Positions 1-63,255 of a stretch of DNA of 64,000 nt are shown here, in pieces. The position numbers and the translations under genes are program-made. The DNA is taken from contig NZ_CP136423.1 in the NCBI RefSeq assembly GCF_034356035.1, positions 2,170,001-2,234,000 on the forward strand. Reading direction: 5' to 3'. This stretch comes from Blautia hydrogenotrophica DSM 10507 (GTDB lineage: Bacteria > Bacillota > Clostridia > Lachnospirales > Lachnospiraceae). How positions within the stretch are numbered: position 1 is the first letter of the stretch; every line of letters begins with the position of its first letter. The notes under the pieces were generated by a model. That model was not told the DNA's origin. It made no database searches and worked only from the letters and a program-made list of their open reading frames with translations.

Positions 1-22
1 CAAGATCTTTCCTATTACATAA
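1..22 (+). repeat. Right-end fragment of the terminator-associated repeat (family B)
   Basis: The first bases match the right hairpin arm of the longer family B copies (CTTTCCTATTACATAA). The rest lies outside the window. It abuts the gap terminator on its right, the same arrangement as in the full copies. Confidence 0.5.
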
Positions 23-51
23 GAAAGGTCCGGTCCATATACGACCGGACC
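21..51 (-). terminator. Rho-independent terminator of gap
   Basis: Read on the minus strand, a perfect 9-bp stem (GGTCCGGTC with GACCGGACC, 7-nt loop) is followed by TTTCTT. It lies 16 bases after the gap stop codon. Confidence 0.85.
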
Positions 52-67
52 CTTAATGAGTCTATAA

Positions 68-1081
68 TTACAGTAATGTTCCGAAGTGCTTGATTGTTCT
101 CACCATCTGGCTGGTGTAAGAATTCTCATTGTCATACCAGGAGATAACCTGAACCTCAGTAGTTCCATTATCCAAAGGCAACACCATGGTCTGAGTAGCA
201 TCAAACAGAGAACCATATTTCATTCCGATGATATCGCTGGATACGATCTCATCCTCATTGTAACCAAAAGATTCATTTGCTGCGGCTTTCATCGCTGCAT
301 TTACCTGTTCTACAGTCACATTTCCCTCTACAACTGCTGTCAGAATTGTAGTAGAACCAGTAGGAGTCGGAACACGCTGTGCGGAACCGATCAGCTTTCC
401 ATTCAGCTCTGGGATAACCAGACCGATCGCTTTTGCAGCACCTGTGCTGTTCGGAACAATGTTAACAGCTGCCGCACGAGATCTTCTCAGATCACCTTTT
501 CTCTGAGGTCCGTCCAGAGTCATCTGATCTCCAGTGTACGCATGAATGGTGCACATAATACCAGATTTGATTGGTGCCAGGTCGTTCAGAGCCTTTGCCA
601 TCGGAGCCAGACAGTTTGTAGTACAAGAAGCTGCAGAAATGATATTGTCTTCTTTTGTCAATTTATCATGGTTTACATTGTAAACGATAGTTGGCAGATC
701 GTTACCTGCTGGTGCAGAAATGACAACTTTCTTAGCGCCTGCTTTGATATGAGCGGCAGCTTTGTCCTTGGAGGTGTAGAATCCAGTACACTCCAGAACA
801 ACATCTACGCCAATTTCGCCCCATGGAAGCTCAGAAGCGTCTGCTTTCGCATAGATTTTGATCTCTTTTCCGTCAACGATAATAGAATCCTCACCAGCGG
901 ATACCTTGTCAGCTAGTGCATATCTACCCTGTGTAGAGTCATATTTCAATAAATGAGCCAGCATTTTCGGGGAGGTCAGGTCGTTGATCGCAACTACTTC
1001 ATAACCCTCAGCTCCGAACATCTGTCTGAATGCAAGACGTCCGATACGTCCAAATCCATTGATTGCAACTTTTACTGCCAT
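68..1081 (-). CDS. gap: Type I glyceraldehyde-3-phosphate dehydrogenase
   Basis: Cytosolic glycolytic enzyme that oxidises glyceraldehyde-3-phosphate to 1,3-bisphosphoglycerate with NAD. The 337 residues match the family length. The Rossmann motif INGFGRIGR is at residues 8-16, and an Asp in AINDLT (about residue 34) fits NAD preference. The catalytic Cys153 lies in SCTTNC, and the partner His180 in TIHAYTGDQ. The start is preceded by AGGAGG at proper spacing. It has its own promoter and terminator and so appears monocistronic. Nothing is unusual in the sequence. Identification is firm. Confidence 0.98.
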
Positions 1082-1156
1082 GTTAAATTCCTCCTATGAT
1101 GATTGATATTTTTTTCCCGGCACAAAATATGCAGGGATAGCTTCAACCTGTATGCT

Positions 1157-1185
1157 ATTGTAACCAAATTTGTAAAAAAATTCAA
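1157..1185 (-). promoter_or_regulatory. Sigma-A-type promoter of gap
   Basis: On the minus strand: -35 TTGAAT (1180-1185), a 17-bp spacer and -10 TACAAT (1157-1162), about 75 bases before the gap start codon. Confidence 0.6.
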
Positions 1186-1214
1186 GACCAATTTCAAAAA
1201 ATCTCCTTTTTAAC

Positions 1215-1538
1215 GTAACTATTCAGCCATAACAGCTCGGATTAGCTGCTGCGCAGCTTATATCGCCGCATATGCGGCGAAATCCTCGCTTATGGCTAAG
1301 CGCCATATGCCTGATAAGAGTAAAACTCCTCTGCAAACAAGCTTGTTCCGGATTTTTGCTCGTAACACATCAGCCTTTCGGCTTCACTGTCACGACTGCA
1401 TGCACACAGACTGCGATTCTCTCCGTCTGGCGCCTGCAGTCCTCGGGATCCCGCTGCAAATGCAGCGGGACGCCTCGCGGGACAGTATCAGGTTGTCTGT
1501 TACTTTTCCTTCTATCAGTCGCATGGCTGAATAGTTAC
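1215..1538. mobile_element. MITE-like element (type 1) carrying a nested type 2 element
   Basis: The ends are a perfect 16-bp inverted repeat, GTAACTATTCAGCCAT and its complement. Without the nested insert at 1362-1503 the element is about 182 bp and closely matches the 173-bp copy at 14139-14311 in inverse orientation, including the GCCGCATATGCGGC palindrome and the GATAAGAG region. It encodes no protein and fills most of the gap between gap and the PHP gene. Confidence 0.75.
1362..1503 (+). mobile_element. MITE-like element (type 2), nested in a type 1 copy
   Basis: It runs from GTAACACATCAGCC to GGTTGTCTGTTAC, about 142 bp, and is highly similar along its length to the copies at 15972-16114 and 16194-16336. 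Shared features are the CTTTCGGCTTCACTGTCAC start, the GACTGCGATTCTCT region and the CGGGATCCCGCTGCAAATGC region. Its ends are more diverged than those of the other two copies. Confidence 0.7.
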
Positions 1539-1562
1539 TTCTTATCAAATTTGTGATATAAT
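1535..1562 (+). promoter_or_regulatory. Candidate promoter of the PHP gene, partly inside the MITE end
   Basis: A perfect -10 TATAAT (1557-1562) lies 16 bp after TTACTT (1535-1540). The -35 overlaps the last bases of the type 1 MITE, whose right end is at 1538. The -35 match is weak. Confidence 0.4.
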
Positions 1563-1635
1563 GGGCGAGGAATGCGACCATACTGCTTCATTTAGATAGC
1601 ATTCCACATTCACAGAAAACAGGAGTATACAAATT

Positions 1636-2460
1636 ATGCAGACAAAAATTCTAAGCGATATTCATCTTCACTCTTCTTTTTCCGGCGACAGCGAGACACC
1701 AATGGAAGCTATGATACAGGCAGGAATTCAAAAAGGACTTCACCACATGTGCTTCACAGAACATCTAGATCTAGACTATCCCTACCATCCAGAAGACTTT
1801 GTGGATTTTTCCCTAGACGACGACAGTTACCGACAGACTTTTTTGACGCTGAGAGACAAGTATCAACACCAAATTGAGCTGCTCTTCGGCATTGAACTAG
1901 GACTTCAGCCTCATCTTAAAGATGCTCATTCTCAACTATTAAAAAAACATCCCTTTGATTTCGTCATCGGCTCTTCCCACACTGCCCGCGGCGAAGACCC
2001 CTACTACACTTCCAGCTTTTTTCAGAATCGAGGCGAACGAGAAGCCTACACCCTCTATTTCACTTCGATTTTAGAAAACCTCGATGCCTTCTCGGACATT
2101 GACACCTACGGGCATATCGACTATGTCGTCCGCTATGGTCCAAACCGAAACAAAAACTATACCTATGAAATGTACGGAGAAGTTCTCGATCAAATTCTAA
2201 AGACCTTGATTCAAAAGGGTATCGGTATGGAAGTAAATAGTGGAGGCTTAAAATACGGCCTTGGACAGCCAAATCCTTGCGAGGAAATCATACGCAGATA
2301 CCACCAGCTAGGCGGCAAAATCATCACCATCGGCTCTGATGCCCACAGCCCTGAGTATCTAGCTTACGAATTTCCAAAAATCTCAGAGATTCTCAAAAGC
2401 TGCGGTTTCACTCATTATACAATTTTTCGTCAGCGTACCCCTGTCTTTTTGCCGCTTTAG
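1636..2460 (+). CDS. PHP-domain phosphoesterase, histidinol-phosphatase (HisK/HisJ) family
   Basis: The 274-residue protein begins with the PHP metal-binding motif SDIHLHSSFSGD (residues 7-18), followed by CFTEHLD. Near the C-terminus SDAH completes the trinuclear metal site. Family members hydrolyse histidinol phosphate in histidine synthesis, but no other his genes are nearby, so another phosphate-ester substrate is possible. The RBS is AGGAG, 11 nt before the ATG. It is one of few plus-strand genes and converges on the P-type ATPase gene. Family assignment is firm; substrate is inferred. Confidence 0.85.
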   Translation: MQTKILSDIHLHSSFSGDSETPMEAMIQAGIQKGLHHMCFTEHLDLDYPYHPEDFVDFSLDDDSYRQTFLTLRDKYQHQIELLFGIELGLQPHLKDAHSQLLKKHPFDFVIGSSHTARGEDPYYTSSFFQNRGEREAYTLYFTSILENLDAFSDIDTYGHIDYVVRYGPNRNKNYTYEMYGEVLDQILKTLIQKGIGMEVNSGGLKYGLGQPNPCEEIIRRYHQLGGKIITIGSDAHSPEYLAYEFPKISEILKSCGFTHYTIFRQRTPVFLPL

Positions 2461-2495
2461 TCAAAATACCTGCACCACTGTATGGGAAATACCGG

Positions 2496-2681
2496 ACAAA
2501 GTGGGCAAGTCCTCTTCCATTTCCCTCCCCTCAATCTTTGAGGGGAACGTCCCACTTTGCGCACCGCCGCAACACCGCTAAACGGGGAATTTCTCATTGC
2601 GGTTGCGCATCCATAGTGGAGCGTTTACGTGATAAAAAAGGGCTTTTACGCATTAGCCTGACAGGTTCTTTCCTATCACAT
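2496..2681 (+). repeat. Terminator-associated structured repeat (family B), full copy
   Basis: It contains the family landmarks in order: CAAAGTGGGCAAG, the small hairpin CCCCTCAATCTTTGAGGGG, CCCACTTTGCGC, the GCCGCAACACCG block, and a terminal hairpin whose right arm is CTTTCCTATCACATAA. The right end runs straight into the A-run that is the U-tract of the ATPase terminator. Confidence 0.75.
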
Positions 2682-2729
2682 AAAAAAATGGGATGTATCC
2701 TGAAAGCTATTCCTGATACATCCCATTTT
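2682..2729 (-). terminator. Terminator of the P-type ATPase gene
   Basis: A perfect 12-bp stem, ATGGGATGTATC with GATACATCCCAT (2688-2726), is followed on the minus strand by seven T residues. It may also act weakly on the plus strand for the convergent PHP gene. Confidence 0.85.
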
Positions 2730-2749
2730 GGGTCCACAGATGCCTATTC

Positions 2750-5257
2750 TCATCTTATAAATTTTCTGAGTTTCCCCTGCTTTTTCTCTTTTCCGCGTTC
2801 CATTGATCTTAGATACATTTTCCTCAGCAGGGAAGTAATCGCATCAATCACCACAGGCGAAAAAATCATCAGCATAAACACCAAAATAATCATGCCAAAT
2901 TCCAGAGCTCTCAAATTCAAAAGCTTCTGTAAAATCAAAGCGCAGCCAAAGAATATAAGCTGCATACCATAGATAATCACTTTTCTAAAACGTGTCAGCG
3001 GCGAATAAACGGTCTTCAACGCAGCCATATAGTTCCACCCTGTAACCAAGACACAGGCGGTATTCAGCATCGCATTGGAATGATACACATCCTGACAGAC
3101 CAGCATCACTACAAAGACACAGGCAGTGATCGTCACCGCAGCTGGAAAGGCATTCATAAACACATGGCGTAAAAATGTCTTATCTATGCGCTCGTAATTA
3201 AATTCCTGAGCTAGCAAAAAGGTCGGAATTCCCACCGCGCAGGCACTGATCAGAGACATCTGTATCGGCTCAAAGGGATATGCCTCCCCGAAAAAGATGG
3301 TAAGCAGCGACAGGCAGACCGAGAAAATTGTTTTAATCAGAAACATAGACGCGGCCGTCCGTATGTTGTTGACCACCTTTCGCCCCTGATTTACGATATG
3401 AGGCATCGCTCCAAAATTGGAGTCCAGCAGCACCACGTTGGCAATATTCTTTGCAGCATCACTTCCAGAAGCCATCGCAATGCTACAGTCTGATTCTTTT
3501 AACGCCAGAACATCATTGACACCGTCACCAGTCATGGCAACCGTGTGTCCTTGCTTTTTCAGCGCCAGAACCATTTCCTTTTTCTGCTGCGGCGTTACTC
3601 GACCAAATACACTGCACTCAGCTACTGCCCGTTCCATCTCCTGGGGACTGCTGATCTTCGTCGCATCCACATAGCGTTCCGCATTCTTTAGCCCTGCCTT
3701 CTTGGCAATCGCTGACACGGTCACAGGATCATCCCCTGAAATCACTTTTAAATCAACTCCCTGGCTGTCAAAAAATGCCAGAGTTTCAGGTGCTTCCTGA
3801 CGAATGACATCCGTGAGCAAAATCACCGCACACGGCAACAACCCTTGAGGCAGTTTTGTCCCATCTGCAGTCTGAGAACTGTGTGCCAAAACCAAAAGCC
3901 GATAGCCTTTTCCCGCGTATTCCTGGCAAATCTCATCCAGTTTTTTATTTCTTTTTGGAAACAAAAACTGAACCGCTCCCATCAGATAGGTTCCCCTACC
4001 CTCGAAGCAGGCACCGCTGTATTTTCTCTCCGACGAAAATGGAACTGCATGGTCCAAAGTAAATTCTCTGACCGGTCTGAAGTGCTCTCTGAGAGCGTCT
4101 GCTGTCGCATTGGAATCGCTCAAAACCCCCATGAGATTCTGCATCACATGATTTAGCTCATCCATGCTCATGCCCTTTCGAACGTCCTCCCTTTCCTTGT
4201 CCGGCACGTCCTCCTTCACAGCATCTTCTATTTCTTGGGTCTCAATTTCTTGAGACTCTTTTTTCTTCAGATTTACTTTTTCAGACTCTTCCTTTTGACA
4301 ATCCTCCTGAAAATCCGCCGGTTCCAGCAAAATCACCTGCTCCACGCACATGCTTCCCTCTGTAATAGTTCCGGTTTTGTCCAGACACAGAGTATCCACC
4401 CGCGCCAACGTCTCAATACAATACAATTCTTGAACCAAGGTTTTGCGTTTTGCAAGAGAAAGCGCTCCCAAAGTCAGAGCCACACTGGTAAGCAGTACTA
4501 GCCCTTCTGGAATCATTCCAAGCACAGCCGCCACTGTGCTTACAACAGAATTTTTAAAGGAATCTCCTACCATGTAGAACTGCTTATAAAACAGCATAAT
4601 TCCCAATGGAAGAATAATGATACTGATGACTTTCAAGATCTTATTCAGCGCGTTTCGAAGCTCTGAATTATGCTTCTTGAACTCTTTTGCCTCTTTGGTA
4701 ATCTGGGAGGCATAGTTATCCTTCCCTACATGTATCACTTGACAGCAAGCTTCGCCGGCTGTCACAAAGCTCCCGGAAAACAGCTCGTCTTTCACTGTCT
4801 TTACCAGATTGTCCGCCTCACCGGTCAACAACGATTCATTCACTTCCACGCTGCCCTCGAGGACAACGGCATCTGCCGGTACCTGGTCGCCACTTTTGAG
4901 AAATATCACATCGTCGAGCACCAGCTCTTCCGTGGAAATCGACCATTTTTTTCCATCCCTTAAGACTACCGCTTTATTTGCTGTGAGAATCGCAAGCTTG
5001 TCTATGGTTTTCTTCGCCCTGACTTCCTGTACAATTCCAATGACTGTATTGATGATAATAATTCCCATGAACATACTGTTCTTGTAAGAACCTACAACCA
5101 ATACCAGAACCAGCAAAACCACATTCAGAAAGTTAAAAAAAGTCAATGTATTTTCACGGATGATCTGTTTATATGTTCTTGTATTCGGAGAATCGCTGAT
5201 GTTGACCTGACCAGCTTCTATTCTTTTTTGAATCTGTTCACTTGTAAGTCCCGTCAT
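2750..5257 (-). CDS. Cation-translocating P-type ATPase, CtpE-like
   Basis: A membrane pump of about 835 residues. It has the TGE actuator motif (about 148), transmembrane helix 4 with PEGLVLLTS (about 253), the phosphorylation motif DKTGT (about 296) and TGDGVND (about 580), plus a C-terminal helix block. The PEGLVLL motif resembles mycobacterial CtpE, reported as a calcium transporter; calcium specificity here is inference. A charged insert rich in Glu and Lys (about 316-372) follows DKTGT. There is no N-terminal heavy-metal domain. The first ATG (5266) has no proper RBS spacing; the one at 5257 sits 9 bases after AGGA and is preferred. No operon partner is evident: mnmA ends just upstream. 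Confidence 0.9.
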   Translation of the reverse strand: MTGLTSEQIQKRIEAGQVNISDSPNTRTYKQIIRENTLTFFNFLNVVLLVLVLVVGSYKNSMFMGIIIINTVIGIVQEVRAKKTIDKLAILTANKAVVLRDGKKWSISTEELVLDDVIFLKSGDQVPADAVVLEGSVEVNESLLTGEADNLVKTVKDELFSGSFVTAGEACCQVIHVGKDNYASQITKEAKEFKKHNSELRNALNKILKVISIIILPLGIMLFYKQFYMVGDSFKNSVVSTVAAVLGMIPEGLVLLTSVALTLGALSLAKRKTLVQELYCIETLARVDTLCLDKTGTITEGSMCVEQVILLEPADFQEDCQKEESEKVNLKKKESQEIETQEIEDAVKEDVPDKEREDVRKGMSMDELNHVMQNLMGVLSDSNATADALREHFRPVREFTLDHAVPFSSERKYSGACFEGRGTYLMGAVQFLFPKRNKKLDEICQEYAGKGYRLLVLAHSSQTADGTKLPQGLLPCAVILLTDVIRQEAPETLAFFDSQGVDLKVISGDDPVTVSAIAKKAGLKNAERYVDATKISSPQEMERAVAECSVFGRVTPQQKKEMVLALKKQGHTVAMTGDGVNDVLALKESDCSIAMASGSDAAKNIANVVLLDSNFGAMPHIVNQGRKVVNNIRTAASMFLIKTIFSVCLSLLTIFFGEAYPFEPIQMSLISACAVGIPTFLLAQEFNYERIDKTFLRHVFMNAFPAAVTITACVFVVMLVCQDVYHSNAMLNTACVLVTGWNYMAALKTVYSPLTRFRKVIIYGMQLIFFGCALILQKLLNLRALEFGMIILVFMLMIFSPVVIDAITSLLRKMYLRSMERGKEKKQGKLRKFIR

Positions 5258-5285
5258 TTTCACCATTCCTATTTGCCGTTATCAT

Positions 5286-8557: not shown

Positions 8558-8666
8558 GAGGATTATGCGAATATACTTAACAAAATATATCAGTTATCGC
8601 CATTTGCATTTTTCATCCCATTCTCTGTAAATGGCAGCTAACTGTTCATTGGGTAAGGTAAAAGTC

Positions 8667-10019
8667 ATGGGACAAAAAAAACAACTGTTATGGGGAACTA
8701 TCATCCTCACTGCCACCGGTTTCCTAAGCCGGCTTATTGGTTTCTTCTATAGAATATTCCTCTCTCACACCATTGGTGCAGAGGGCCTCGGAATCTACCA
8801 GCTCGTCTTTCCCGTCCAAGCACTCTGTCTCGCCCTCACCGTCATGGGAATGTCCACCGCGATCTCCCGTTTTGTAGCCAGTCGGTTCGCCGTAAAAGAT
8901 TTAAAAGGAGCGCATGATATCTTTCTGGTAGGCACCGGAGTCTCCGTGCTCTTTGCCTGCTTAGTTTCCTGGGTCATCCGTGAAAACGCTTCCTTCCTCT
9001 CATCTGTTTTCTTAGGAGAACCCAGGACTGAGTCTTTGTTGTGTCTAATGTCCTGGTCTTTGCCACTGTGCGCACTGCACAATTGTATCAATGGTTACTT
9101 CTATGCGCAAAAAAAGACAGGAATACCCGCAGCCAGTCAGCTTTTAGAACAGTTCGTCCGTGTGGCAACTGCTTATCTTGCCTATAGTTTCCTTTTGTCC
9201 CGAGGACAAGAACCTACCGCCTGGATAGCCGTCATTGGCATCTTTACCAGTGAACTGTGTGTCGTCTTATTTTGCCTCTTCTTCCTTCTCTGGAATCATC
9301 AGAAAAGCAAATTGCTGCTCTTTCCCATCCAAGAACCATTCGGACATCTAAGACGGCTTATGGGAATGTACCTCCCTCTAACTACGAACCGCCTAATCAT
9401 GACCTTTCTCGCATCTGCGGAGGCTATCTTAATCCCCTCCCGGCTGCTGATCTTCGGCTATACCTCCTCCACAGCTTTAAGCATCTATGGTGTTCTCACT
9501 GGAATGGCTTTGCCTATGATCTTATTCCCCAGTGCTGTGACCAATTCTATCTCTGTAATGCTGCTTCCCTCCATCGCTCAGCAACAAGCTCTCGGGCAGA
9601 AAAAGCAAATCCAAAAAACCATTGAACTCACTGTTCAATGCTGCCTTCTCCTGGGATTTCTCTGCACCGCATTTTTTGCAGTGTTTGGAACCTTTATCGG
9701 AAATTTCTTATTCCATAACGAATTAGCTGGCTCTTTTATCCAAACCTTAGCCTTCGTATGTCCCTTTCTCTATCTCAATGGGACTTTGAACAGTGTTTTA
9801 AACGGTCTGGGTAAAACCGGCACTTCTCTGATCCACAGTATACTAGGAATCACCCTGCGAATTGCCAGTGTAATCTGGATCATTCCCAGATACAGTATTC
9901 AAGGATACCTGTGGGGACTTTTAGCCGGAGAAGTCCTTGTCACTTTTCTGCATCTCCACGCCCTAAACCGCATAGTCCAGATTAATTTTCGCCTTCTGCC
10001 TCTGCGTCTGAACAAATAG
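8667..10019 (+). CDS. spoVB: Stage V sporulation protein B-like MOP flippase
   Basis: A polytopic membrane protein of about 450 residues of the MATE/MurJ-like polysaccharide exporter superfamily, with a dozen or so hydrophobic segments. The N-terminal stretch WGTIILTATGFLSRLIGFFY is typical of SpoVB and its relatives, which are thought to flip lipid-linked peptidoglycan precursors for the spore cortex. The start at 8667 was chosen over the upstream ATG at 8631 because it has AAGG ahead of it and begins at the conserved N-terminus. A role in general cell-wall export cannot be excluded. Confidence 0.82.
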   Translation: MGQKKQLLWGTIILTATGFLSRLIGFFYRIFLSHTIGAEGLGIYQLVFPVQALCLALTVMGMSTAISRFVASRFAVKDLKGAHDIFLVGTGVSVLFACLVSWVIRENASFLSSVFLGEPRTESLLCLMSWSLPLCALHNCINGYFYAQKKTGIPAASQLLEQFVRVATAYLAYSFLLSRGQEPTAWIAVIGIFTSELCVVLFCLFFLLWNHQKSKLLLFPIQEPFGHLRRLMGMYLPLTTNRLIMTFLASAEAILIPSRLLIFGYTSSTALSIYGVLTGMALPMILFPSAVTNSISVMLLPSIAQQQALGQKKQIQKTIELTVQCCLLLGFLCTAFFAVFGTFIGNFLFHNELAGSFIQTLAFVCPFLYLNGTLNSVLNGLGKTGTSLIHSILGITLRIASVIWIIPRYSIQGYLWGLLAGEVLVTFLHLHALNRIVQINFRLLPLRLNK

Positions 10020-10020
10020 C

Positions 10021-10222
10021 CTTTCCTATCACAAAACAAAGGGGCACGCTCTCTTTAGCTTCTCCTTCCCCTCAGTCTTGAGGGACGCGTCCCACTTTGC
10101 GCGCCGTCGCTACACCGCCTCGCGGTGAAATTCCTCATTGCAGCGTGCGCATCCTTAGCGGCGCATTTCTGTGATAAGAAAGATCTTTCATACATCCACG
10201 TGACAAGGTTTTTCCTAGAATA
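10021..10222 (+). repeat. Family B structured repeat, full copy with a degraded terminal hairpin
   Basis: It has CTTTCCTATCACA at its left end, CAAAGGGG, CCCCTCAGTCTTGAGG, CCCACTTTGCGCGCC, and the inner CATCCACGTGACAAGG stretch. The right hairpin arm is altered. It is followed directly by a second copy at 10226 rather than by a terminator. Confidence 0.7.
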
Positions 10223-10225
10223 GAA

Positions 10226-10396
10226 TAAAGTGGGCAAGCCCACTTCAACTCCCCCTCAATCTTTGAGGGGCGCGTCCCACTTTGCGCGCCGCCGCAACAC
10301 CGTCTCGCGATGAAATTCCTCATTGCGGCGTGTGCATCTTGCCCGGAGGGCTTTTTATTGCATAGAGAACAAAGTTTCCTATGCAATGAAAAAGCC
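10226..10396 (+). repeat. Family B structured repeat, second tandem copy
   Basis: The left part is nearly identical to the copy at 61991. The terminal hairpin is different: GGCTTTTTATTGCATAG (10349-10365) pairs with CTATGCAATGAAAAAGCC (10379-10396), replacing the usual TGTAATAGG arms while keeping the pairing. Confidence 0.75.
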
Positions 10397-10411
10397 ACGA
10401 ACCGGCTGTAA
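10387..10411 (-). terminator. Possible terminator of xerD
   Basis: On the minus strand a short hairpin (AGCC, 7-nt loop, GGCT) is followed by TTTTT. The stem is weak and merges with the hairpin arm of the adjacent repeat. Confidence 0.35.
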
Positions 10412-10438: not shown

Positions 10439-11323
10439 TTATCTTCTTGGATGTGCCTGCATATACACATCTCTCATTCTGTTCATATTTAGATTCAAAT
10501 ACATCTGTGTCGTCGAGATATCTGAGTGCCCCAACATTTCTTGTAAACTCTTAATATCCGCTCCATTTTGCAGCATATGAGCCGCAAAAGAATGTCTCAG
10601 AGTATGGGGTGTAATGTCCGTCGTAATTCCTGCCGCAGACGCATATCCTTTTAAAACTTTCCAAAAACCCTGGCGACTCATCATCTTTCCGGAGCAATTG
10701 GGAAACAAGATATCCGTCTCCCCTTTCCTCTGGAAAGCCTCTCTGCCTTGTTCTAAGTACTGAACCAAAGCTCTTTTACACACATTTCCAAAAGGAATCA
10801 CCCGCTCTCTGGCACCTTCACTGCAATCCACATATCCTAGATTCAAATTCACATCCGATACTTTTAAGTGCATGAGCTCGCTGACACGCATCCCAGTCGC
10901 ATAGAGCAACTCCAGCATCGCCTTGTCTCTCAGCCCCTTTGCCGTATCCAAAGAAGGCTGTCTCAGCAACAAATCCACTTCTTCCACGGTCAAGATCTCA
11001 GGGGTTTTCTTCTCCACTTTCGGAGGCTTCAGATTTTCTGAAGGGTCCTGTACTATCTGGTGGGCTCTGAATAAAAATTGATAAAATGCTCGTATTGAAG
11101 CTACGCTTCTGGATATCGTAGACGCTGCGAACTTATTTCTTCTCAAATAACTGAGATATCCATTTAAGTCCGTCTCTGTAACCTTCAAGGGATTATACAC
11201 CCCCTGTCTCTCCAGATAGGCTGCCATTTTATTCAAATCTCTCTCATAAGAGATTTCCGTGTTGTTAGATGTCTGTTTAATGTTATGTAGATAAGTGATA
11301 AACTCACGAATTGCATTTTTCAT
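10439..11323 (-). CDS. xerD: Tyrosine recombinase XerD
   Basis: A site-specific recombinase that resolves chromosome dimers. The 294 residues have an N-terminal SAM-like domain, then the catalytic Arg in YATGMRVSEL, HTLRHSFAAHML and the Tyr nucleophile in STTQMYLNLN near the C-terminus (R-H-x-x-R-Y set). An upstream TTG gives a longer frame, but the ATG at 11323 gives the usual XerD length. It lies downstream of spoIIM. No dif-like site was recognised in the window. A plasmid or phage integrase is less likely given length and context. Confidence 0.9.
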   Translation of the reverse strand: MKNAIREFITYLHNIKQTSNNTEISYERDLNKMAAYLERQGVYNPLKVTETDLNGYLSYLRRNKFAASTISRSVASIRAFYQFLFRAHQIVQDPSENLKPPKVEKKTPEILTVEEVDLLLRQPSLDTAKGLRDKAMLELLYATGMRVSELMHLKVSDVNLNLGYVDCSEGARERVIPFGNVCKRALVQYLEQGREAFQRKGETDILFPNCSGKMMSRQGFWKVLKGYASAAGITTDITPHTLRHSFAAHMLQNGADIKSLQEMLGHSDISTTQMYLNLNMNRMRDVYMQAHPRR

Positions 11324-11386
11324 CTGTGCCCATACCTTATTTCTCAAAATTTAAAAGCAATTCATCATCCAAAAGATTGCTTAAGA

Positions 11387-14138: not shown

Positions 14139-14311
14139 GAAACTATTCAGCCATGCGACTGATAAGAGCAAAAATCTGGAGCAAGCTTGCTTGCAGAGGA
14201 ATTTTGCTCTTATCAGACATATGGCACTTGCCATAAGCGAGGATTTCTCCGCATATGCGGCGATATAAGCTTCGTAACAGCTAATCCGAGCTGCTATGAC
14301 TGAATTGTTAC
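14139..14311 (-). mobile_element. MITE-like element (type 1), full copy
   Basis: The ends are GAAACTATTCAGCCAT (left) and ATGACTGAATTGTTAC (right), an imperfect 16-bp inverted repeat. Reverse-complemented, it aligns with the uninterrupted parts of the copy at 1215-1538. Its right end reaches into recX: the TAA stop codon of recX (14308-14310) lies inside the terminal repeat. Confidence 0.75.
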
Positions 14312-15941: not shown

Positions 15942-15971
15942 CCGGTTTTTTAGACATCCGTCAAAACTGTC

Positions 15972-16114
15972 GTAACCGTTCAGCCTTTCGGCTTCACTGT
16001 CACAAATGCATGCACACAGACTGCGATTCTCTCAGTCTGGCACCTGCAGTCCCCGGGATCCCGCTGCAAATGCAGTGTAACGCCTCGCGGGACAGCGTCA
16101 GGCTGAACTATTAC
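15972..16114 (+). mobile_element. MITE-like element (type 2), first of a pair
   Basis: A 143-bp element running from GTAACCGTTCAGCC to GGCTGAACTATTAC. It is near-identical to the copy at 16194-16336 and in the same orientation. It lies behind the recA promoter region. Confidence 0.75.
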
Positions 16115-16193: not shown

Positions 16194-16336
16194 GTAACCG
16201 TTCAGCCTTTCGGCTTCACTGTCACAAATGCATGCACACAGACTGCGATTCTCTCAGTCTGGCGCCTGCAGTTCTCGGGATCCCGCTGCAAATGCAGCGT
16301 GACGCCTCACGGGACAATGTCAGGCTGAACTATTAC
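16194..16336 (+). mobile_element. MITE-like element (type 2), second of a pair
   Basis: A 143-bp element with the same ends as the first copy. It ends 5 bases from the glgA stop codon, so it lies between glgA and its terminator and would be in the glgA 3' untranslated region. Confidence 0.75.
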
Positions 16337-16341
16337 AACAT

Positions 16342-41196: not shown

Positions 41197-41224
41197 AAAA
41201 AGCCGCCCTGCCGGACAGCTTTTT
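41197..41224 (-). terminator. Terminator at the end of the fatty-acid operon
   Basis: AAAAGCTGTCC pairs with GGGCGGCTTTT (with G-T pairs), flanked by A and T runs on both sides, so it can work in both directions. It lies about 65 bases after the stop of the last operon gene. Confidence 0.7.
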
Positions 41225-41281
41225 CATGTAACAGAAAAGGCCTTATCACGCTAATGCGCGAAAGCCCTTTCCTATCACATA
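41225..41281 (-). repeat. Hairpin-only family B fragment, reverse orientation
   Basis: Read on the minus strand it matches the terminal hairpin of the full copies (TATGTGATAGGAAAGGGC, then CGCATTAGCGTG). It lacks the rest. Its right end touches the plus-strand T-run of the adjoining terminator. Confidence 0.6.
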
Positions 41282-41290
41282 AATGCTCTC

Positions 41291-49778: not shown

Positions 49779-49805
49779 AACAAAGATTTTTTTATTCTTT
49801 ATATT

Positions 49806-49896
49806 TGACGTTTAGCCATAAGCGAGGATTTAGCCGCATATGCTGTGACATAAGCTGCGTAGCAGCTAATTCGAGCTGTTATGGCTGAACTGTTAC
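49806..49896 (-). mobile_element. MITE-like element (type 1), short copy
   Basis: On the minus strand it starts GTAACAGTTCAGCCAT and follows the left half of the 1215 copy, including the CATATGCGGC palindrome and CTCGCTTATGGC. The other end is eroded. It lies between ftsW and acpP. Confidence 0.65.
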
Positions 49897-52350: not shown

Positions 52351-52361
52351 TTCGTCTGCAA

Positions 52362-52545
52362 CGGTTACCTCACAGGCTCGCCCTTCCCTTCAATCTTTTC
52401 TTGGGGAGCGTATCCTACTTTGCATACCGCCCCAATACCGCTTACTACCTTATTGCGGCGTATGCATCCTTAGCGGAGCGTTTTTGTTACAGGAAAGAGC
52501 TTTCATACATTCACGTGACAAGTTTTTTCCGGTAACAAAAAACGC
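52362..52545 (+). repeat. Family B structured repeat, full copy
   Basis: It is more diverged in the left part but keeps TCCTACTTTGCATACCGCC, TTGCGGCGTATGCATCC, and the inner CATTCACGTGACAAG. The terminal hairpin arms are GCGTTTTTGTTAC (52478-52490) and GTAACAAAAAACGC (52532-52545), replacing the usual sequence but still paired. The right arm overlaps the U-tract of the tRNA terminator. Confidence 0.7.
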
Positions 52546-52571
52546 ACCCACAGATTTTCCTGTGGATGCGT
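52537..52571 (-). terminator. Terminator of the tRNA transcript
   Basis: On the minus strand ACGCATCCACAG pairs with CTGTGGGTGCGT (one mismatch) and is followed by TTTTTT. It lies 3 bases after tRNA-Val. Confidence 0.85.
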
Positions 52572-52574
52572 CAA

Positions 52575-54610: not shown

Positions 54611-55240
54611 ATGTGGAATTATGAAAAACGTCTGCAATATCCGATCAATATCAAAACCCCCAACGCCAAAATCGCCCAATATATCATGAGTCAGTATGGG
54701 GGCCCCGACGGCGAAATTGGTGCTTCGATGCGCTATCTATCACAGCGTTTCGCCATGCCAAACCGTACTGCAATGGCAGTTTTAAACGATGTCGGCACAG
54801 AAGAGCTAGCTCATTTAGAGATGGTGTCCACTATGGTCCATCAGCTCACAAGAGATCTCAGCATGGAAGAAATCGAGAAATCTGGTTTTGGAAATTACTA
54901 TATCGATCACACCGTCGGCGTCTGGCCCCAGGCCGCAGGCAATATTCCATTCAACGCCTGTGAATTTCAGTCTAAAGGAGACCCGATCACCGACCTTCAT
55001 GAGGACCTCGCAGCGGAGCAGAAAGCCCGCAGCACCTATGACAACATCCTGCGCGTGGTAAAGGACATTCCAGAGATTGCCGACCCAATCAAATTTCTCC
55101 GTGCACGGGAAATCGTACACTATCAGCGTTTTGGTGAAGCGCTCCGCTCTGTCCAGGAACAGCTAGACGCCAAAAACTTCTATGCCTTCAATCCAAGCTT
55201 TGACAATCCGTGCAAAGCCTCCTGCAAAGATTGCAGATAA
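54611..55240 (+). CDS. cotJC: Spore coat protein CotJC (manganese catalase family)
   Basis: A ferritin-like four-helix protein related to manganese catalases. The 209 residues include the metal-binding Glu/His residues in VGTEELAHLEMV (about 72-83) and DLAAEQKARSTYD and AREIVHYQRFGEAL. The Cys-rich end (SFDNPCKASCKDCR) is unusual. It starts directly after cotJB with its own GGAGG. It may protect spores against peroxide. Confidence 0.92.
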   Translation: MWNYEKRLQYPINIKTPNAKIAQYIMSQYGGPDGEIGASMRYLSQRFAMPNRTAMAVLNDVGTEELAHLEMVSTMVHQLTRDLSMEEIEKSGFGNYYIDHTVGVWPQAAGNIPFNACEFQSKGDPITDLHEDLAAEQKARSTYDNILRVVKDIPEIADPIKFLRAREIVHYQRFGEALRSVQEQLDAKNFYAFNPSFDNPCKASCKDCR

Positions 55241-55300: not shown

Positions 55301-55345
55301 AAATGCCTTCTTCCCTAGACTTATCGCTCTGGGAGAAGGCATTTT
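55301..55345 (+). terminator. Terminator of cotJABC
   Basis: AAATGCCTTCTTCCC pairs with GGGAGAAGGCATTT, followed by a T-run on the plus strand; an A-run on the other side makes it possibly bidirectional for cysK. Confidence 0.8.
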
Positions 55346-55395
55346 TATATAATAGAAAAGACCTTGTTGCGCGAATGTATGAAAGTCCTGTCCAG
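55346..55395 (-). repeat. Hairpin-only family B fragment, reverse orientation
   Basis: Read on the minus strand it matches the end of full copies (GACTTTCATACATTCGCG, then AAGGTCTTTTCTATTATA). Its right end abuts the T-run of the cotJABC terminator. It lies between cotJC and cysK. Confidence 0.5.
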
Positions 55396-57821: not shown

Positions 57822-57854
57822 TTTATTATAGTATCTGACCATGTCACATCAATT

Positions 57855-57981
57855 TATGTGTCACTACATCACCACTATGCGATGAAACTTCTCATTTCAG
57901 CATACACATACAAAGCAGAGCATTTGTGTCCTAGGAAAAAACATTCAAACATTAACGTGACAATGGTTTCCTAGGACATAA
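57855..57981 (+). repeat. Family B structured repeat, diverged copy
   Basis: The left half is eroded. The inner CATTAACGTGACAATGG matches the family. The terminal hairpin has arms TGTCCTAGGAAA (57927-57938) and TTTCCTAGGACA (57967-57978), different bases from other copies but perfectly paired. The right end abuts the terminator of the Rrf2 gene. Confidence 0.6.
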
Positions 57982-58025
57982 AAAATACGCTTTGCAAAGA
58001 TTTTTACCTCTTTACAAAACGTATT
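57981..58025 (-). terminator. Terminator of the Rrf2-type regulator gene
   Basis: AATACG and CGTATT close a longer stem with mismatches (TTTGCAAAG with CTTTACAAA). On the minus strand a T-run follows. It makes the regulator monocistronic, apart from metY-cysK. Confidence 0.65.
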
Positions 58026-58050
58026 TCTATTCAGCCGCTCTTAGATTCTT

Positions 58051-58455
58051 TTAGTTTTTCAGTAAATCCGCTAGTGTCACGCTGTCCAGGTACTCCCCAA
58101 TCCGCCGGTCCAACTCCTTCCACATAGGCAACGTCAGGCAAGTCATTGACCTACCACAGGCCTCCTCTTCACACTCAAGACAGGACACAGGCGCCAAGCT
58201 ACCCTCTGTCAGCCTCAAAATCTCTCCGACCGTATAATCCTGTGCACTCCTAGCCAGTTGATAACCACCTTTTTTTCCCATCTGACTTCTCAAATAACCG
58301 CCTTTGTTCAGAATAGAAATAATCATCTCTAAGTACTTCACAGAAATTTCCTGTCGCTGAGCGATGGAAGCCACAGAAGTATATGCTTTGGGATCCTGTT
58401 GCGCCAGATCCAACATCACTCGAATCGCGTATCTTCCTTTTGTAGAAATTTTCAT
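58051..58455 (-). CDS. Rrf2-family transcriptional regulator next to metY-cysK
   Basis: A 134-residue winged-helix regulator starting MKISTKGRYAIRVM. Cysteines at 92, 95, 100 and 106 (C-x2-C-x4-C-x5-C) differ in spacing from the IscR-like protein at 8052. Its position suggests a CymR-like role in cysteine and sulfur gene control, acting on the palindrome at 57797-57821. It may sense Fe-S or redox state through the Cys cluster. The function is inferred from context. Confidence 0.8.
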   Translation of the reverse strand: MKISTKGRYAIRVMLDLAQQDPKAYTSVASIAQRQEISVKYLEMIISILNKGGYLRSQMGKKGGYQLARSAQDYTVGEILRLTEGSLAPVSCLECEEEACGRSMTCLTLPMWKELDRRIGEYLDSVTLADLLKN

Positions 58456-58525: not shown

Positions 58526-58545
58526 GGAGAAAATAAGTTTTCTCC
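58526..58545. promoter_or_regulatory. Palindrome in the leader of the Rrf2-type gene
   Basis: GGAGAAAATAAGTTTTCTCC has perfect 8-base arms around TAAG. It lies a few bases after the promoter of the Rrf2-type gene. It could be an operator or a hairpin; it lacks a T-run, so it is probably not a terminator. Confidence 0.35.
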
Positions 58546-58551
58546 AGCTCC

Positions 58552-58580
58552 ATTATATTCGAGCAAGACGTCATCAGCAA
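58552..58580 (-). promoter_or_regulatory. Promoter of the Rrf2-type regulator
   Basis: On the minus strand: -35 TTGCTG (58575-58580), 17-bp spacer, perfect -10 TATAAT (58552-58557). Confidence 0.6.
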
Positions 58581-58614
58581 GGGATGAACAGAAAATTTTT
58601 TAGATTGCTCCAGC

Positions 58615-59511: not shown

Positions 59512-59537
59512 GGACCTCCTCCTTCTCCTGAGCACTT

Positions 59538-60275
59538 TTACCTGAAATCACTTTTTTTGAAAATCTTCCAAGCCATCAGAAAAAATACACCTGCCCATAC
59601 CACACCGACCAAGATACCCTCAGGCTGCCAAAGCTGTGGAGTACTCACAACCACTCTAATCTGATAAATAGGCAAAAAGGCCACTGGAAACCCTAGCATC
59701 ATTCCATACCCTAAATATAGGCTGAGCACAAATACCGTCCCAGCAGTGACTCCGACTGCTTTTTTCATACTTTTAGACCAACAGCAAACACAAATTGTTA
59801 GGAGAAAAACCGCGCTGTTCAGCAAAACAGAATAGGAAAATGCTTTCAGCGCATGGCAGAAAAAATCGCCTGGCCTGGCAATCCCAAACCGTGGATACTC
59901 ACGAATACAACCGGCAACTGGATATATGAAGGTCATAAAATGAAAAGCTGCCAGATAAACCACTGCCTTGCTGACAAAAACAGACTTTCTCGAATGCCCA
60001 GCACTAATCTCCAATCCAACTGTCCTAGACGAAAACTCTTGCCCCAGAATCACAGACAGAAGTGTTGAAACCAAGATCAGTAAAAAGGTAGAATCATAGA
60101 CCATGCCATCTAAGATATCTTCCAGCGATGCAGCTGCACCGCCAGAAGGCCCCATCACTTCTGATAGATAAGTGTCCGCGGTAAAAAAGCCCAATAAAAA
60201 TACACCTGCCATCCCATACCAATAGAATAAATTGTGCTGCAACTGATATCTATCCATTTTCAGTAAGTTTATCAC
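59538..60275 (-). CDS. ABC transporter permease, lantibiotic-immunity type (second)
   Basis: A 245-residue membrane protein with six hydrophobic segments and an N-terminal amphipathic stretch (MINLLKMDRYQLQHN). It fits the LanG/CprC-type permeases that pair with a second permease and an ATPase. It lies 12 bases after the first permease. Confidence 0.8.
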   Translation of the reverse strand: MINLLKMDRYQLQHNLFYWYGMAGVFLLGFFTADTYLSEVMGPSGGAAASLEDILDGMVYDSTFLLILVSTLLSVILGQEFSSRTVGLEISAGHSRKSVFVSKAVVYLAAFHFMTFIYPVAGCIREYPRFGIARPGDFFCHALKAFSYSVLLNSAVFLLTICVCCWSKSMKKAVGVTAGTVFVLSLYLGYGMMLGFPVAFLPIYQIRVVVSTPQLWQPEGILVGVVWAGVFFLMAWKIFKKSDFR

Positions 60276-60287
60276 ACCAATCCCCCT

Positions 60288-60983
60288 CTATCTCAAATCA
60301 GATCTTCGAAAAATACCATACGTACAAAAAAATAAGGCCAAAATACCAACAACATCCACTACCCAGATCACTGGCATAAAAGCTGGCAAGGGCTGTTCAC
60401 AGAGCAGTCTTAACTGTCCCATCGGTAAGATCGCAGCCGCAGATTGAGCTACAACGCTATTGAGCCAGAAAATCGACACAAAGAAAAGCACCATAGAAGC
60501 CACCAAAGTTCTTCCTATATCCCGAAAAGCTATCGCCAAAAAGAAAGTCGGCATGCACATAGCCAGCGTAACAACCAGACTTAAGACGCTTATTATCCCG
60601 AATTCTAACGCAGAGAAAACCTTTTCTTCCACCAGATTTTCTCCTGATATACCACACAACAGAACCGGCAAGAGCAGAACTACCGCACAAGAAACTTGGT
60701 AAGTAACCACCTTTGCCAGCAAAACTTTGATTCTCTTATGCCCGGCTTCCACATACCAGTACAAAGTACCCTGTTGAAATTCACCTCCTACCCAGATAGC
60801 TCCCCAGATGTTTGTCAAAAAGGAAAGAAGCGGTACATTATAGAGAGCGGAATAAAACAAATGTGACGTCTGTCTGCCATCCAGCAAAAGCACTCTTCCC
60901 AAAAGAAAGGAAACCAACCCGATCATCCAAAAACTGCCGTTGTGAGCTAACTTATAGAATTCAGCTCTCAAAAGGTTTGCCAT
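60288..60983 (-). CDS. ABC transporter permease, lantibiotic-immunity type (first)
   Basis: A 231-residue membrane protein beginning MANLLRAEFYKLAHNG, then six hydrophobic helices. It resembles LanE/CprB-type permeases. Its start overlaps the ATPase gene by 16 bases, suggesting coupled translation. Confidence 0.8.
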   Translation of the reverse strand: MANLLRAEFYKLAHNGSFWMIGLVSFLLGRVLLLDGRQTSHLFYSALYNVPLLSFLTNIWGAIWVGGEFQQGTLYWYVEAGHKRIKVLLAKVVTYQVSCAVVLLLPVLLCGISGENLVEEKVFSALEFGIISVLSLVVTLAMCMPTFFLAIAFRDIGRTLVASMVLFFVSIFWLNSVVAQSAAAILPMGQLRLLCEQPLPAFMPVIWVVDVVGILALFFCTYGIFRRSDLR

Positions 60984-61894
60984 CTATTCTCCCCCACCTT
61001 CGTCAAAAAATAATCTTCCAGAGTTCCCCCGGTAATCGAAAGACCCGTGACAAGGATTTGTGCTTCAGCCAGCGCCTTGGCTACCTTCTCCATATTGTCC
61101 AAGTAATCGTACAGGCGAATTTCATTGTCAGGCATCATCCGAAAATGATCTGTGAGCAGCCTTTCTTCAATGGCCAGGATTGCCCCTTGCGTGTCCGTCG
61201 TTCTGATAGAAATATACCGTTTGCAGTGTTCATTCAGGGCACGTACCGAAATCTCCTCAACGATTCTTCCTCTGTCAATAAAAATGAACTCTGTTGCAGT
61301 CTGATATAACTCCTCCAAAATATGGCTGGAAATCAGAATGGTCATCCCATATTCCTGGTTCAAAGTTTTCAAAAGCCTTCGTATCTTTACAATACCGTCA
61401 GGGTCAAGACCATTCACAGGCTCATCCAATATCAAAAACTCCGGTGTGTTCAGCAGCGCCATTGCGATTCCTAAACGCTGTTTCATTCCAAGAGAAAAAT
61501 TACGTACCTTTTTTTGACTCTTTTCCAGTCCCACCAGTTTCAATGTCCTGTCAATGCTCTCTTTGTCTGGGACTCCCCGTAAAATGCGCTGTACCTCCAG
61601 ATTCTGCCAGGCTGTCAGATTCGGAAATAGCGCAGGACTCTCAATCATACTGCCTATCCTTTTTCTTTGTTCCTGTAATTTCTCAGTAGCTGATTCTCCC
61701 CATAATGCGAGTTTCCCGCTGCTGGGAAACGCCAAACCAGTAATCAGACGCAAAAAAGTAGTTTTCCCCGCACCATTTTGTCCGACAAAACCATAGATTT
61801 TCCCTTGTTCAAGCCTTAAATTGACCTGCTCTAGTACGGCCGTTTTCCTGTAAAACTTCGTTAACGCTTGTGTCTCCAAAACAACTGATTTCAT
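60968..61894 (-). CDS. ABC transporter ATP-binding protein, lantibiotic-immunity type
   Basis: A 308-residue ATPase with Walker A GQNGAGKTT (38-46), signature FSLGMKQRLGIA (about 143), Walker B LILDEPVNGLDPDG and ISSHILEEL. The C-terminal 90 residues are an accessory domain. With two small permeases and a two-component system it matches LanFEG or CprABC modules, which move lantibiotics and other cationic peptides away from the membrane. No lantibiotic synthesis genes are in the window. Confidence 0.88.
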   Translation of the reverse strand: MKSVVLETQALTKFYRKTAVLEQVNLRLEQGKIYGFVGQNGAGKTTFLRLITGLAFPSSGKLALWGESATEKLQEQRKRIGSMIESPALFPNLTAWQNLEVQRILRGVPDKESIDRTLKLVGLEKSQKKVRNFSLGMKQRLGIAMALLNTPEFLILDEPVNGLDPDGIVKIRRLLKTLNQEYGMTILISSHILEELYQTATEFIFIDRGRIVEEISVRALNEHCKRYISIRTTDTQGAILAIEERLLTDHFRMMPDNEIRLYDYLDNMEKVAKALAEAQILVTGLSITGGTLEDYFLTKVGENRWQTF

Positions 61895-61918
61895 AACCTA
61901 ACCTCCTTCATATCCCTA

Positions 61919-61949
61919 TCTTAAGAGGCAATCTTAAAAAATTCCTTAA
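61919..61949 (-). promoter_or_regulatory. Triple TTAAG repeat upstream of the ABC operon
   Basis: On the minus strand TTAAGG, TTAAGA and TTAAGA occur at 12- and 13-base spacing just upstream of the ATPase gene. Direct repeats near a promoter are typical of OmpR-type regulator sites. The assignment is inference. Confidence 0.35.
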
Positions 61950-61990
61950 ATCTCCACAAAAAAATAATTTTCAGCCTTCCTCGTACCATA

Positions 61991-62200
61991 CTCTTTCCTG
62001 TAACCGAACAAAGTGGGCAAGCCCACTTCAACTCCCCCATCCCCTCAATCTTTGAGGGGCGCAGTCCCACTTTGCACGCCGCCGCAACACCGCCTTGCGG
62101 TGCACTACCTCGTTGCGGCGTGTGCATCCCTAACGTAGCGTTTATGTAATAGGAAAGGGCTTTCACGCATTAGCGTGACAAGGTCTTTCCTATTATATAA
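61991..62200 (+). repeat. Family B structured repeat, full copy (best preserved)
   Basis: In order it shows CTTTCCTGTAACC, AAAGTGGGCAAGCCCACTT (hairpin), CCCCTCAATCTTTGAGGGG (hairpin), CCCACTTTGCACGCC, GCCGCAACACCG, TTGCGGCGTGTGCATCC, and the terminal hairpin TATGTAATAGGAAAG/CTTTCCTATTATATA (62143-62199). The inner loop holds CACGC-ATTA-GCGTG. It lies between the ABC operon and the regulator gene and abuts the regulator terminator. Confidence 0.8.
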
Positions 62201-62242
62201 AAAATGCATAAAACCAAGGGCTCATCCCTCAGCCTTATGCAT
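62197..62242 (-). terminator. Terminator of the response regulator gene
   Basis: On the minus strand ATGCATAAGGCTGAGGG pairs with CCCTTGGTTTTATGCAT (several G-U pairs) and is followed by TTTTTT. The 5' arm lies inside the end of the coding region, and the stop codon is in the loop region. Confidence 0.75.
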
Positions 62243-62908
62243 CCGATAACCAATTCCCCATACTGTATCAATGAATTCCCGGTCCGGGCAGATTTTTCTC
62301 AACTTGCTCCTCAGATTACTTATATGGACATTTAACGTATTGTCCTCGCTGATATATTCCATATTCCAGACACTTTGAAATAAATTGGCCTTGGAAAAAA
62401 TTTTGTCCGGAAACTCCATCAGCAGCCTTAAAAGTGCAAATTCTTTCGCAGTCAACACCAATTCACACCCTTGTAATGTCGCCGTATGCCTCTCTAAATC
62501 CAAGAGCAGGTCTTCACACCGCAAAATATCTTTGGATTTTTCCCAAATCCCGACTCGACGCAAGTTGCTCTCAATTCTCGCGAGTACCTCTTCCATGTCA
62601 AAGGGTTTCGTGATATAGTCATCTGCTCCCTGACGCAGTAAGTCAATCTTATTCTGCGTTGTCTCTTTCGCTGAGATCACAATTACAGGCATCAAAAAGT
62701 TTTCCCGTATTTCCGCCAGAACACCCTCTCCACTTTGATATGGCAGCATCAAATCCAACAGTACCAAGTCCACCTTCTTCTGCCTCAGGCATTCTGAGAC
62801 ATGGAGACCCTGATATAAGTTGACAGTCTCATACCCCTTTCCACTTAGAAATCCCGACAACAACTTATTGATCTCTACATCATCTTCAACAATCAAAATC
62901 CGTCTCAT
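62222..62908 (-). CDS. OmpR-family response regulator of the LanRK/CprRK-type system
   Basis: A 228-residue regulator with a receiver domain (acidic pair VEDD, phospho-Asp52 in LVLLDLMLP, Lys in ITKPFD) and a winged-helix C-terminus (VLTAKEFALLRLLME). It is followed by a terminator and a family B repeat, so it is transcribed apart from the ABC-kinase genes it probably controls. Confidence 0.93.
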   Translation of the reverse strand: MRRILIVEDDVEINKLLSGFLSGKGYETVNLYQGLHVSECLRQKKVDLVLLDLMLPYQSGEGVLAEIRENFLMPVIVISAKETTQNKIDLLRQGADDYITKPFDMEEVLARIESNLRRVGIWEKSKDILRCEDLLLDLERHTATLQGCELVLTAKEFALLRLLMEFPDKIFSKANLFQSVWNMEYISEDNTLNVHISNLRSKLRKICPDREFIDTVWGIGYRMHKAEG

Positions 62909-62955
62909 CTCACCGCTCCAACATCCGCAATTGACATTTTCTGTTCACGGAAGGT

Positions 62956-62984
62956 ATTATACTCTTTTTAGCCAAGAACCGCAA
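62956..62984 (-). promoter_or_regulatory. Promoter of the response regulator
   Basis: On the minus strand: -35 TTGCGG (62979-62984), 17-bp spacer, perfect -10 TATAAT (62956-62961), 48 bases before the start codon. Confidence 0.6.
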
Positions 62985-63007
62985 CGAAAATCACATGGCA
63001 GAATTTC

Positions 63008-63206
63008 TTATAACAGGAACAAAGTAGGCAAGCTCACTTCAACTTCTTCCAGCCCCTCAGTCTTGAGAGGCGCCCCACTTTGCACGCTGAACACAACCGC
63101 TTGCGGCGACTACTTCTTATACGAGTGTGTATCTTTAGCGGAACGTTTATGTAATAGGACAGTACTTTCGTGCATCAGCGTGGCAAGATCTTTCCTATTA
63201 CATAAA
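63008..63206 (+). repeat. Family B structured repeat, full copy
   Basis: It has AACAAAGTAGGCAAGCTCACTT, CCCCTCAGTCTTGAGAGG, CCCACTTTGCACGC, and the terminal hairpin TTTATGTAATAGGA/TCCTATTACATAAA (63146-63206) around an inner CATCAGCGTGGCAAG. The right end lies 3 bases from the terminator of the flavoprotein gene. Confidence 0.75.
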
Positions 63207-63255
63207 AGTAGGACAGAAAATTGCCATGACCTGGTCTGGCAAAATTTTCTGTCCT
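63207..63255 (-). terminator. Terminator of the flavodoxin-fold gene
   Basis: A perfect 13-bp stem AGGACAGAAAATT/AATTTTCTGTCCT, extended inward by TTGCCA/TGGCAA-type pairing, about 55 bases after the stop. A short T-run follows on the minus strand. Confidence 0.75.

Follow-up and report, generated by a model that had tools for sequence, protein, structure and literature searches.

A structured non-coding repeat of Blautia hydrogenotrophica and related bacteria whose right end abuts intrinsic terminators

What fixes the position and orientation of a short non-coding repeat that recurs through a 64,000-nucleotide stretch of the Blautia hydrogenotrophica DSM 10507 genome? The stretch, hereafter the window, comprises bases 2,170,001-2,234,000 of a 3.59-Mb contig (NZ_CP136423.1). 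An earlier note, made from its sequence alone, had described a repeat of ~200 bp lying against Rho-independent terminators with fixed polarity, and self-comparison of the window recovers every copy at the places named there. The repeat is non-coding and hairpin-rich, measuring ~195 bp in B. hydrogenotrophica and ~170-200 bp across the genomes that carry it. We propose that it is probably a family of mobile elements, structured, non-coding and non-autonomous, which occur in Lachnospiraceae-type bacteria and insert directly downstream of intrinsic terminators. The copies in the window and the terminators beside them are as follows, those marked "listed" being reported by a generic terminator predictor.

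1-22, plus strand: right end of a copy that begins ahead of position 1; a terminator-like hairpin follows at ~27-51
2493-2682, plus strand: full-length element copy, its right end meeting a minus-strand terminator
2685-2729, minus strand: terminator (inverted repeat with T-tract) of the minus-strand gene 2750-5266, abutting that copy; read from the sequence, not listed
10033-10224, plus strand: full-length element copy, its right end running into the left end of the copy at 10222-10393
10222-10393, plus strand: tandem copy whose right hairpin is a shorter variant; the left end appears in the predictor output as terminator-like (listed, 10247-10226, minus strand)
10393-10407, minus strand: weak terminator of gene 10439-11347, at the right end of the tandem pair; listed
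41197-41225, no strand assigned: bidirectional terminator-like hairpin; read from the sequence, not listed
41220-41288, minus strand: reversed fragment, right hairpin only, abutting a hairpin that lies between an A-run and a T-run
52355-52539, plus strand: diverged copy beside the terminator of two tRNA genes; covariance-model match
52541-52572, minus strand: terminator of the tRNAs; listed
55342-55393, minus strand: reversed fragment, right hairpin only, abutting the T-tract of a plus-strand terminator at ~55308-55346 (not listed) behind the plus-strand open reading frame (ORF) 54611-55240
57860-57985, plus strand: diverged, left-truncated copy with its right end retained; from self-comparison and reading of the sequence
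57986-58029, minus strand: terminator of the minus-strand gene 58051-58455; read from the sequence, not listed
62005-62199, plus strand: full-length element copy (61993-62204 served as query of the genome search)
62202-62244, minus strand: terminator of the minus-strand gene 62222-62908 (a response regulator according to the earlier note), its stem overlapping the 3' end of the gene; listed
63016-63204, plus strand: full-length element copy; covariance-model match
63207-63254, minus strand: terminator of the minus-strand gene 63310-63876; read from the sequence, not listed

Reading of the sequence places an A-run (in the orientation of the element) and an inverted repeat after every right end in the window other than that of 10033-10224, in agreement with the earlier description, which had excepted the junction at 10222 alone. 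The two hairpin-only fragments, described as reversed and as also facing terminators, do lie on the minus strand and do so. Independent prediction agrees in part: the generic predictor lists three minus-strand terminators at these junctions (52572-52541, 62244-62202 and the weak 10407-10393) and omits those at 2685-2729, 57986-58029, 63207-63254, 41197-41225 and ~55308-55346, and its background is high (13 found vs 9.9 in shuffles; 17 vs 10.0), so that it lends weak support.

Across the genome, a BLASTN search in which 40 of 210 candidates were scored was followed by a covariance model built from 30 copies, which, with 150 of 1119 candidates scored, finds at least 150 copies (E 2.2e-11 or better); the window pieces at 1-22, 41220, 55342 and 57860 fall outside this set. 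Fourteen of the 150 run into another copy, leaving 136 non-tandem copies. Junctions were scored for an A-run and for the highest-scoring stem to begin no more than 14 bases from the right end, with thresholds of at least 4 for the A-run and at least 14 for the stem score. Right ends of non-tandem copies carry the A-run in 101/136 cases, the stem in 100/136 and both in 83/136 (61%), as against both at 5/150 left ends. The two features coincide at ~1% of 600 random places, at 24/1467 random intergenic places and at 35/1578 sites set at matching distances behind other genes (379 called genes with no copy nearby); position behind a gene therefore does not account for the exact abutment. Distances and orientations relative to terminators are thus far from random genome-wide, and the covariance-model count proposed in the earlier note bears out the pattern seen in the window. 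Among the 53 copies that fail, a number show a plain terminator missed by the thresholds, the stem scorer being prone to miss some terminators with long loops, and a few have the A-run but no stem that can be seen. In other genomes, 45/64 distinct non-tandem junctions pass, compared with 2/64 left ends and 9/1000 random sites.

The terminator could be a target of the element or an integral part of it. Closely similar copies within single genomes (denoted here by our labels) distinguish the two: mean identity is 96.8% among 14 copies in G075, 94.6% among nine in G045 and 91.8% among ten in G053, whereas the right flanks agree at 56.0% (shuffled 55.7%), 58.7% (56.8%) and 58.1% (56.1%), respectively; relatives' rows L114 and L133, truncated or variant, were dropped before this comparison. 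Similar copies with unrelated right flanks indicate that the terminator is the target and not the element, and we reject the idea of a repeat that carries its own. Separately, the terminator behind a gene for an HU-type DNA-binding protein (named by eye) is occupied by the element in G053 (locus L142) and, in B. hydrogenotrophica, by a 14-nt right-end piece (locus L047, ~8860-9510); this terminator is possibly a shared hot spot.

Orientation follows the terminator, as the earlier note had claimed; its companion claim, that orientation does not follow the chromosome, fits less well, since 136/150 copies match their chromosome half (boundary 1.8 Mb). With the boundary taken from gene strands, 487/538 called genes (~90%) run in the direction of replication, and an element that follows terminators is therefore expected to show most of this bias. 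A called gene lies within 600 bp to the right of 114/136 non-tandem copies, 103 of which face the gene's 3' end and 11 its start; for the remaining 22/136, the lack of a called gene does not imply the lack of a gene, as the gene caller misses some genes (e.g. a 462-amino-acid plus-strand ORF at 8631-10019) and all RNA genes. Flipped copies occur at 5/14 sites beside lagging-strand genes vs 2/100 beside leading-strand genes (Fisher p 0.0002), and a right-end stem is present in 11 of the 13 flipped copies (boundary 1.78 Mb), with an A-run as well in eight, the corresponding counts for their left ends being three and zero. Flipped copies (13/136) are about as frequent as lagging-strand genes (51/538), and no extra strand bias is visible in this comparison, for which genes are a poor proxy of terminators. 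An orientation set by the chromosome strand alone was considered and rejected, since orientation depends on gene and terminator, even though nine cases run the other way.

From the left, the top strand of the element comprises AGAACAAAGNGGRCAAGYCCNCTT, which is mostly self-complementary, a CCCTCA..TGAGGG hairpin, a CTTTG partner of the left end, a long variable stem, a T-run and a right hairpin with a ATAGGAAA..TTTCCTAT core; the right end is palindromic within itself, and the T-run pairs with the A-run of the junction (pairs 185-187 with 253-255). Read with the terminated gene, the order becomes terminator stem, T-tract, long ATAGGAAA..TTTCCTAT hairpin, multi-helix core, short GC hairpin and T-rich TTTGTTCT. 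In 30 diverse copies, standard pairs occupy 92.2% of paired cells vs 79.9% in shuffles, and cells with double changes number 209 vs 62.4 in shuffles and at most 61 when the structure is slid; this structure, like that for the strand counts below, derives from the same alignments, which favours it on cells paired. The right hairpin is 96.9% paired, its outer pairs being swapped yet still complementary, and loops and hairpin lengths differ among species. On this evidence the predicted fold covaries strongly. Alignment A3, which holds 30 of 34 distinct copies with some ends trimmed or extended by hand, has one left-end base that appears to co-vary with two partners, in a local hairpin and in a long-range stem (columns 10, 21 and 66; pair 10-66 is included in the covariation count); this suggests two alternative folds.

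A conserved structure downstream of genes, with a far end that weakly resembles a terminator, is also what one might see in a non-mobile regulatory 3' module, such as an insulator or a back-up of termination, disseminated through recombination and selection. Such a module, which we consider very improbable, is contradicted by the exact abutment, by truncated and abutting copies, and by near-identical repeats turning up at unrelated sites. We return to mobile elements: comparison of sequences shows the target habit, the fixed polarity, a terminator outside the element, a conserved structure and copies or pieces at the far end, together with closely similar copies at unrelated sites in several species, and from these we infer movement of the element itself.

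The far end, read with the terminated gene, is AAGNGGACTTGTCCNCTTTGTTCT: a short GC hairpin trailed by T-rich sequence, for which four variants give -7.1 to -9.0 kcal/mol. Other copies abut it. The left end is met by the right end of another copy in 37/150 cases, mostly at the same base, the control rate being 0.6% of 1969 random sites. The abutting neighbour is one of the 150 model copies in 13/37 junctions and a piece or a too-decayed copy in 24/37; ungapped match lengths of 11-70 in 28 junctions understate some full copies. Outside masked copies, nine exact TTTCCTAT words precede A-runs, five of them with a stem, vs a mean of 0.27 and a maximum of two for 60 permuted words, some of the nine being portions of other repeats or chance. 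Hairpin-only and left-truncated pieces likewise abut hairpins. For the 41220 piece, the ORF list has no gene reading towards the abutting side, which favours recognition of sequence or structure over transcription. We infer a trans-acting mobilising protein that would recognise a hairpin plus T-tract and join the element's hairpin end to the T-tract of a terminator; since the far end imitates such a target, it could serve as a further landing site.

Truncated pieces bring in the leading rival, retrotransposition, in which RNA of the top strand would be reverse-transcribed in trans from the 3'-OH of the terminator T-tract. Such a target-primed start would keep the right end and often truncate the left. 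Pieces in G075 retain the right end only in 13 cases vs the left end only in four and neither in eight (57 matches, 40 of 73 candidates scored, by reading). Many of the 13 were read at a junction and abut a hairpin, and one is a 30-nt piece beside a full copy; the excess suits truncated reverse transcription and also later deletion. The right end is retained in pieces of at least 11 nt, although those beside another copy are partly an effect of ascertainment. Pairing of the element's T-run with the junction A-run would also fit, as would a position like that of group IIC introns (PMC8919778). Reverse transcriptase (RT) genes occur in 10/15 carriers, G045, G053 and G075 included, but are common in genomes without a match to the element too (23/45), and RVT_1 (PF00078) has no match at E 1e-3 in B. 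hydrogenotrophica, G047, G063, G066 or G072. Of these, G063 (91% complete) has copies up to 97.6% identical. Retrotransposition is judged unlikely.

Less likely still is that a Y1 transposase mobilises the element as single-stranded DNA, which would make it REPIN/RAYT-like or a miniature IS200/IS605 relative. Miniature inverted-repeat transposable elements (MITEs) derived from IS200/IS605 and REPIN/RAYT systems have hairpin ends and are orientation-specific, and the hairpin ends and fixed polarity to a T-rich flank seen here resemble these family features. B. hydrogenotrophica also holds a Y1 gene, truncated and its sole match to the family (G000:C1:661896-662099, family positions 53-121 only). 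However, Y1 (PF01797) has no match at E 1e-5 in G045, G053, G060, G066, G069, G072 or G075 (G060 and G075 being 92% and 90% complete), and G045, G053 and G075 hold closely similar copies; the orientation counts above give no sign of an extra strand bias; and the target here is a terminator.

An ordinary MITE mobilised by a DDE transposase, comparable to RUP or BOX, would fit the size and copy number, and such repeats are known in Firmicutes (PMC3049150). A short A-rich duplication is possible: at lengths 4-6, three of the 25 settings shown lie slightly above the highest value reached in 100 permutations. Target-site duplications of at least 7 bases do not rise above permutation in 123 flank pairs under 960 settings, and the element ends are not inverted repeats of each other (GAACAAAG vs TTTCCTATNNA). 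The unlike ends and the lack of such longer duplications make a DDE-type MITE unlikely, and we leave it a very slim chance.

Several observations weigh against insertion at terminators by a mobile element. The first concern its agent. RT, Y1, Y2 and IS110 families were sought, and none is present in every carrier tested: Y2 (PF04986), the transposase of IS91-type rolling-circle elements, occurs in 4/11 carriers tested and not in B. hydrogenotrophica, and the IS110 recombinase (PF02371) in 8/11 and not in B. hydrogenotrophica, G045 or G070. No transposase recurs among 274 ORFs neighbouring copies, where four clusters span at least three genome labels (by eye, a MATE-like transporter, an ABC-type transporter, a glycerol-kinase-like protein and a regulator), and no transposase or RT gene sharing the ends of the element, as the earlier note had suggested seeking, was found; end-only pieces in G075, read at their junctions, led to no enzyme either. 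A search with the flanks of 41 copies against the fetched DNA gave no occupied/empty pair of close strains, yielding one orthologous site worth aligning (locus L142 of G053 vs B. hydrogenotrophica) and two ambiguous pairings (L123/L291 and a second match within L165), and G070 vs G045 gave no alignment across copies. At the junctions, 36/136 non-tandem copies fall below the stem threshold, some being misses of the scan; at a few (e.g. 255084, 3017184) the A-run is there but no terminator can be made out. As to orientation, nine of the 14 copies next to lagging-strand genes are oriented as is usual for their chromosome half, towards the gene start; one of the nine, 2222355, faces tRNA genes, which are invisible to the gene caller, and the stem score is at least 14 in three (903418, 975542 and 2222355). 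An extra influence of the chromosome strand may act at sites without a terminator. The far end appears weakly terminator-like: among the window's left ends in the stretches scanned, the generic predictor lists that of 10222 and not those of 2493, 10033, 62005 and 63016. Finally, G-U counts, which bear on the strand of action, do not decide it (top strand 60 vs 48 in alignment A2, 37 vs 20 in A3).

A model search with stricter filters places the element in 15/60 genomes of the genus, B. hydrogenotrophica included. An exact pattern scan of a genome collection returned 89 stretches, 80 of them with titles, from Blautia, Roseburia, Anaerostipes, Eubacterium ramulus, Lachnospiraceae bacteria and one 'Eubacteriales' bin with loci identical to those of G075. 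E. ramulus is filed under Eubacteriaceae at NCBI, and we take it to group otherwise with Lachnospiraceae. The pattern is also matched by two viral contigs.

A second class of element was found through partial matches in G054, G074, G023, G067 and G001. Like the first, it has this same right module before a terminator, the terminator habit and a terminator-like left end; unlike the first, its left half, where present, is unrelated and starts with a GAATCCTGC..GCAGGATTC hairpin or a near variant, and it is seen in G054, G067 and G001, which have no class 1 match in the model search. In B. hydrogenotrophica, reading shows a T6 run linking this hairpin to class 1 copies or pieces in 6/9 cases, the nine coming from fetched DNA biased towards class 1 sites. 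These hairpins, with a T6 (or A-run) side, lie at G000:C1 523898, 718770, 720150, 726546, 757532, 827188, 975665, 1589380 and 1837868.

A more speculative extension, to which we give rather less than an even chance, is an element class with a self-renewing target. It would home to a terminator stem plus T-tract and pair its own run with that of the target on the other side of the junction, and by mimicking a terminator its far end would let arrays grow one way; two classes with unrelated left halves sharing a landing module would then imply a common trans-acting enzyme.

Class C (IIC) group II introns of bacteria, common in Firmicutes, insert directly behind Rho-independent terminators (PMC8919778). 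The likeness to these introns drawn in the earlier note is apt for location and polarity, both lying directly 3' of the terminator T-tract in a fixed orientation, and fails for membership: the element is much shorter (~170-200 nt), B. hydrogenotrophica has no RT match, and no group II model matches the window at gathering score or five loci among hits to E 5. Nor does any Rfam family reach gathering score in the window, and in the five loci the hits that overlap the element all score far below gathering.

The pneumococcal SPRITE, BOX and RUP are, like the element, short, structured, dispersed non-coding repeats of a Firmicute. In the portion of PMC3049150 consulted, SPRITE is terminator-like and enriched near 3' ends, BOX and RUP have terminal inverted repeats and target duplications, and the description includes no fixed-polarity abutment to existing terminators. 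Among the entries listed by the literature searches, from which subscription journals are mostly absent, no title or abstract start concerned this repeat, and the parts seen of PMC2267715 and PMC8040213 hold nothing on it.

If our reading is right, a mobile element without genes would gain a safe harbour in compact genomes by landing behind terminators, where it should do little harm, and its terminator-like far end may shield neighbours as well as provide the next landing site. Homing to terminators would then reach beyond elements that carry an RT, and the enzyme responsible, should it be identified, would insert short DNA at the terminators of common gut bacteria.

Two further features were observed. 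An S10-Clostridia ribosomal leader lies at 1835-1917 of locus L134, a few hundred bases from a copy. In the window, an unrelated second repeat family occurs at 1215-1367, 14160-14311, 15970-16105, 16194-16338 and 49803-49896; some of its copies have ends like GTAAC..TTCAGCC and GGCTGAA..GTTAC, and it resembles an ordinary inverted-repeat MITE.

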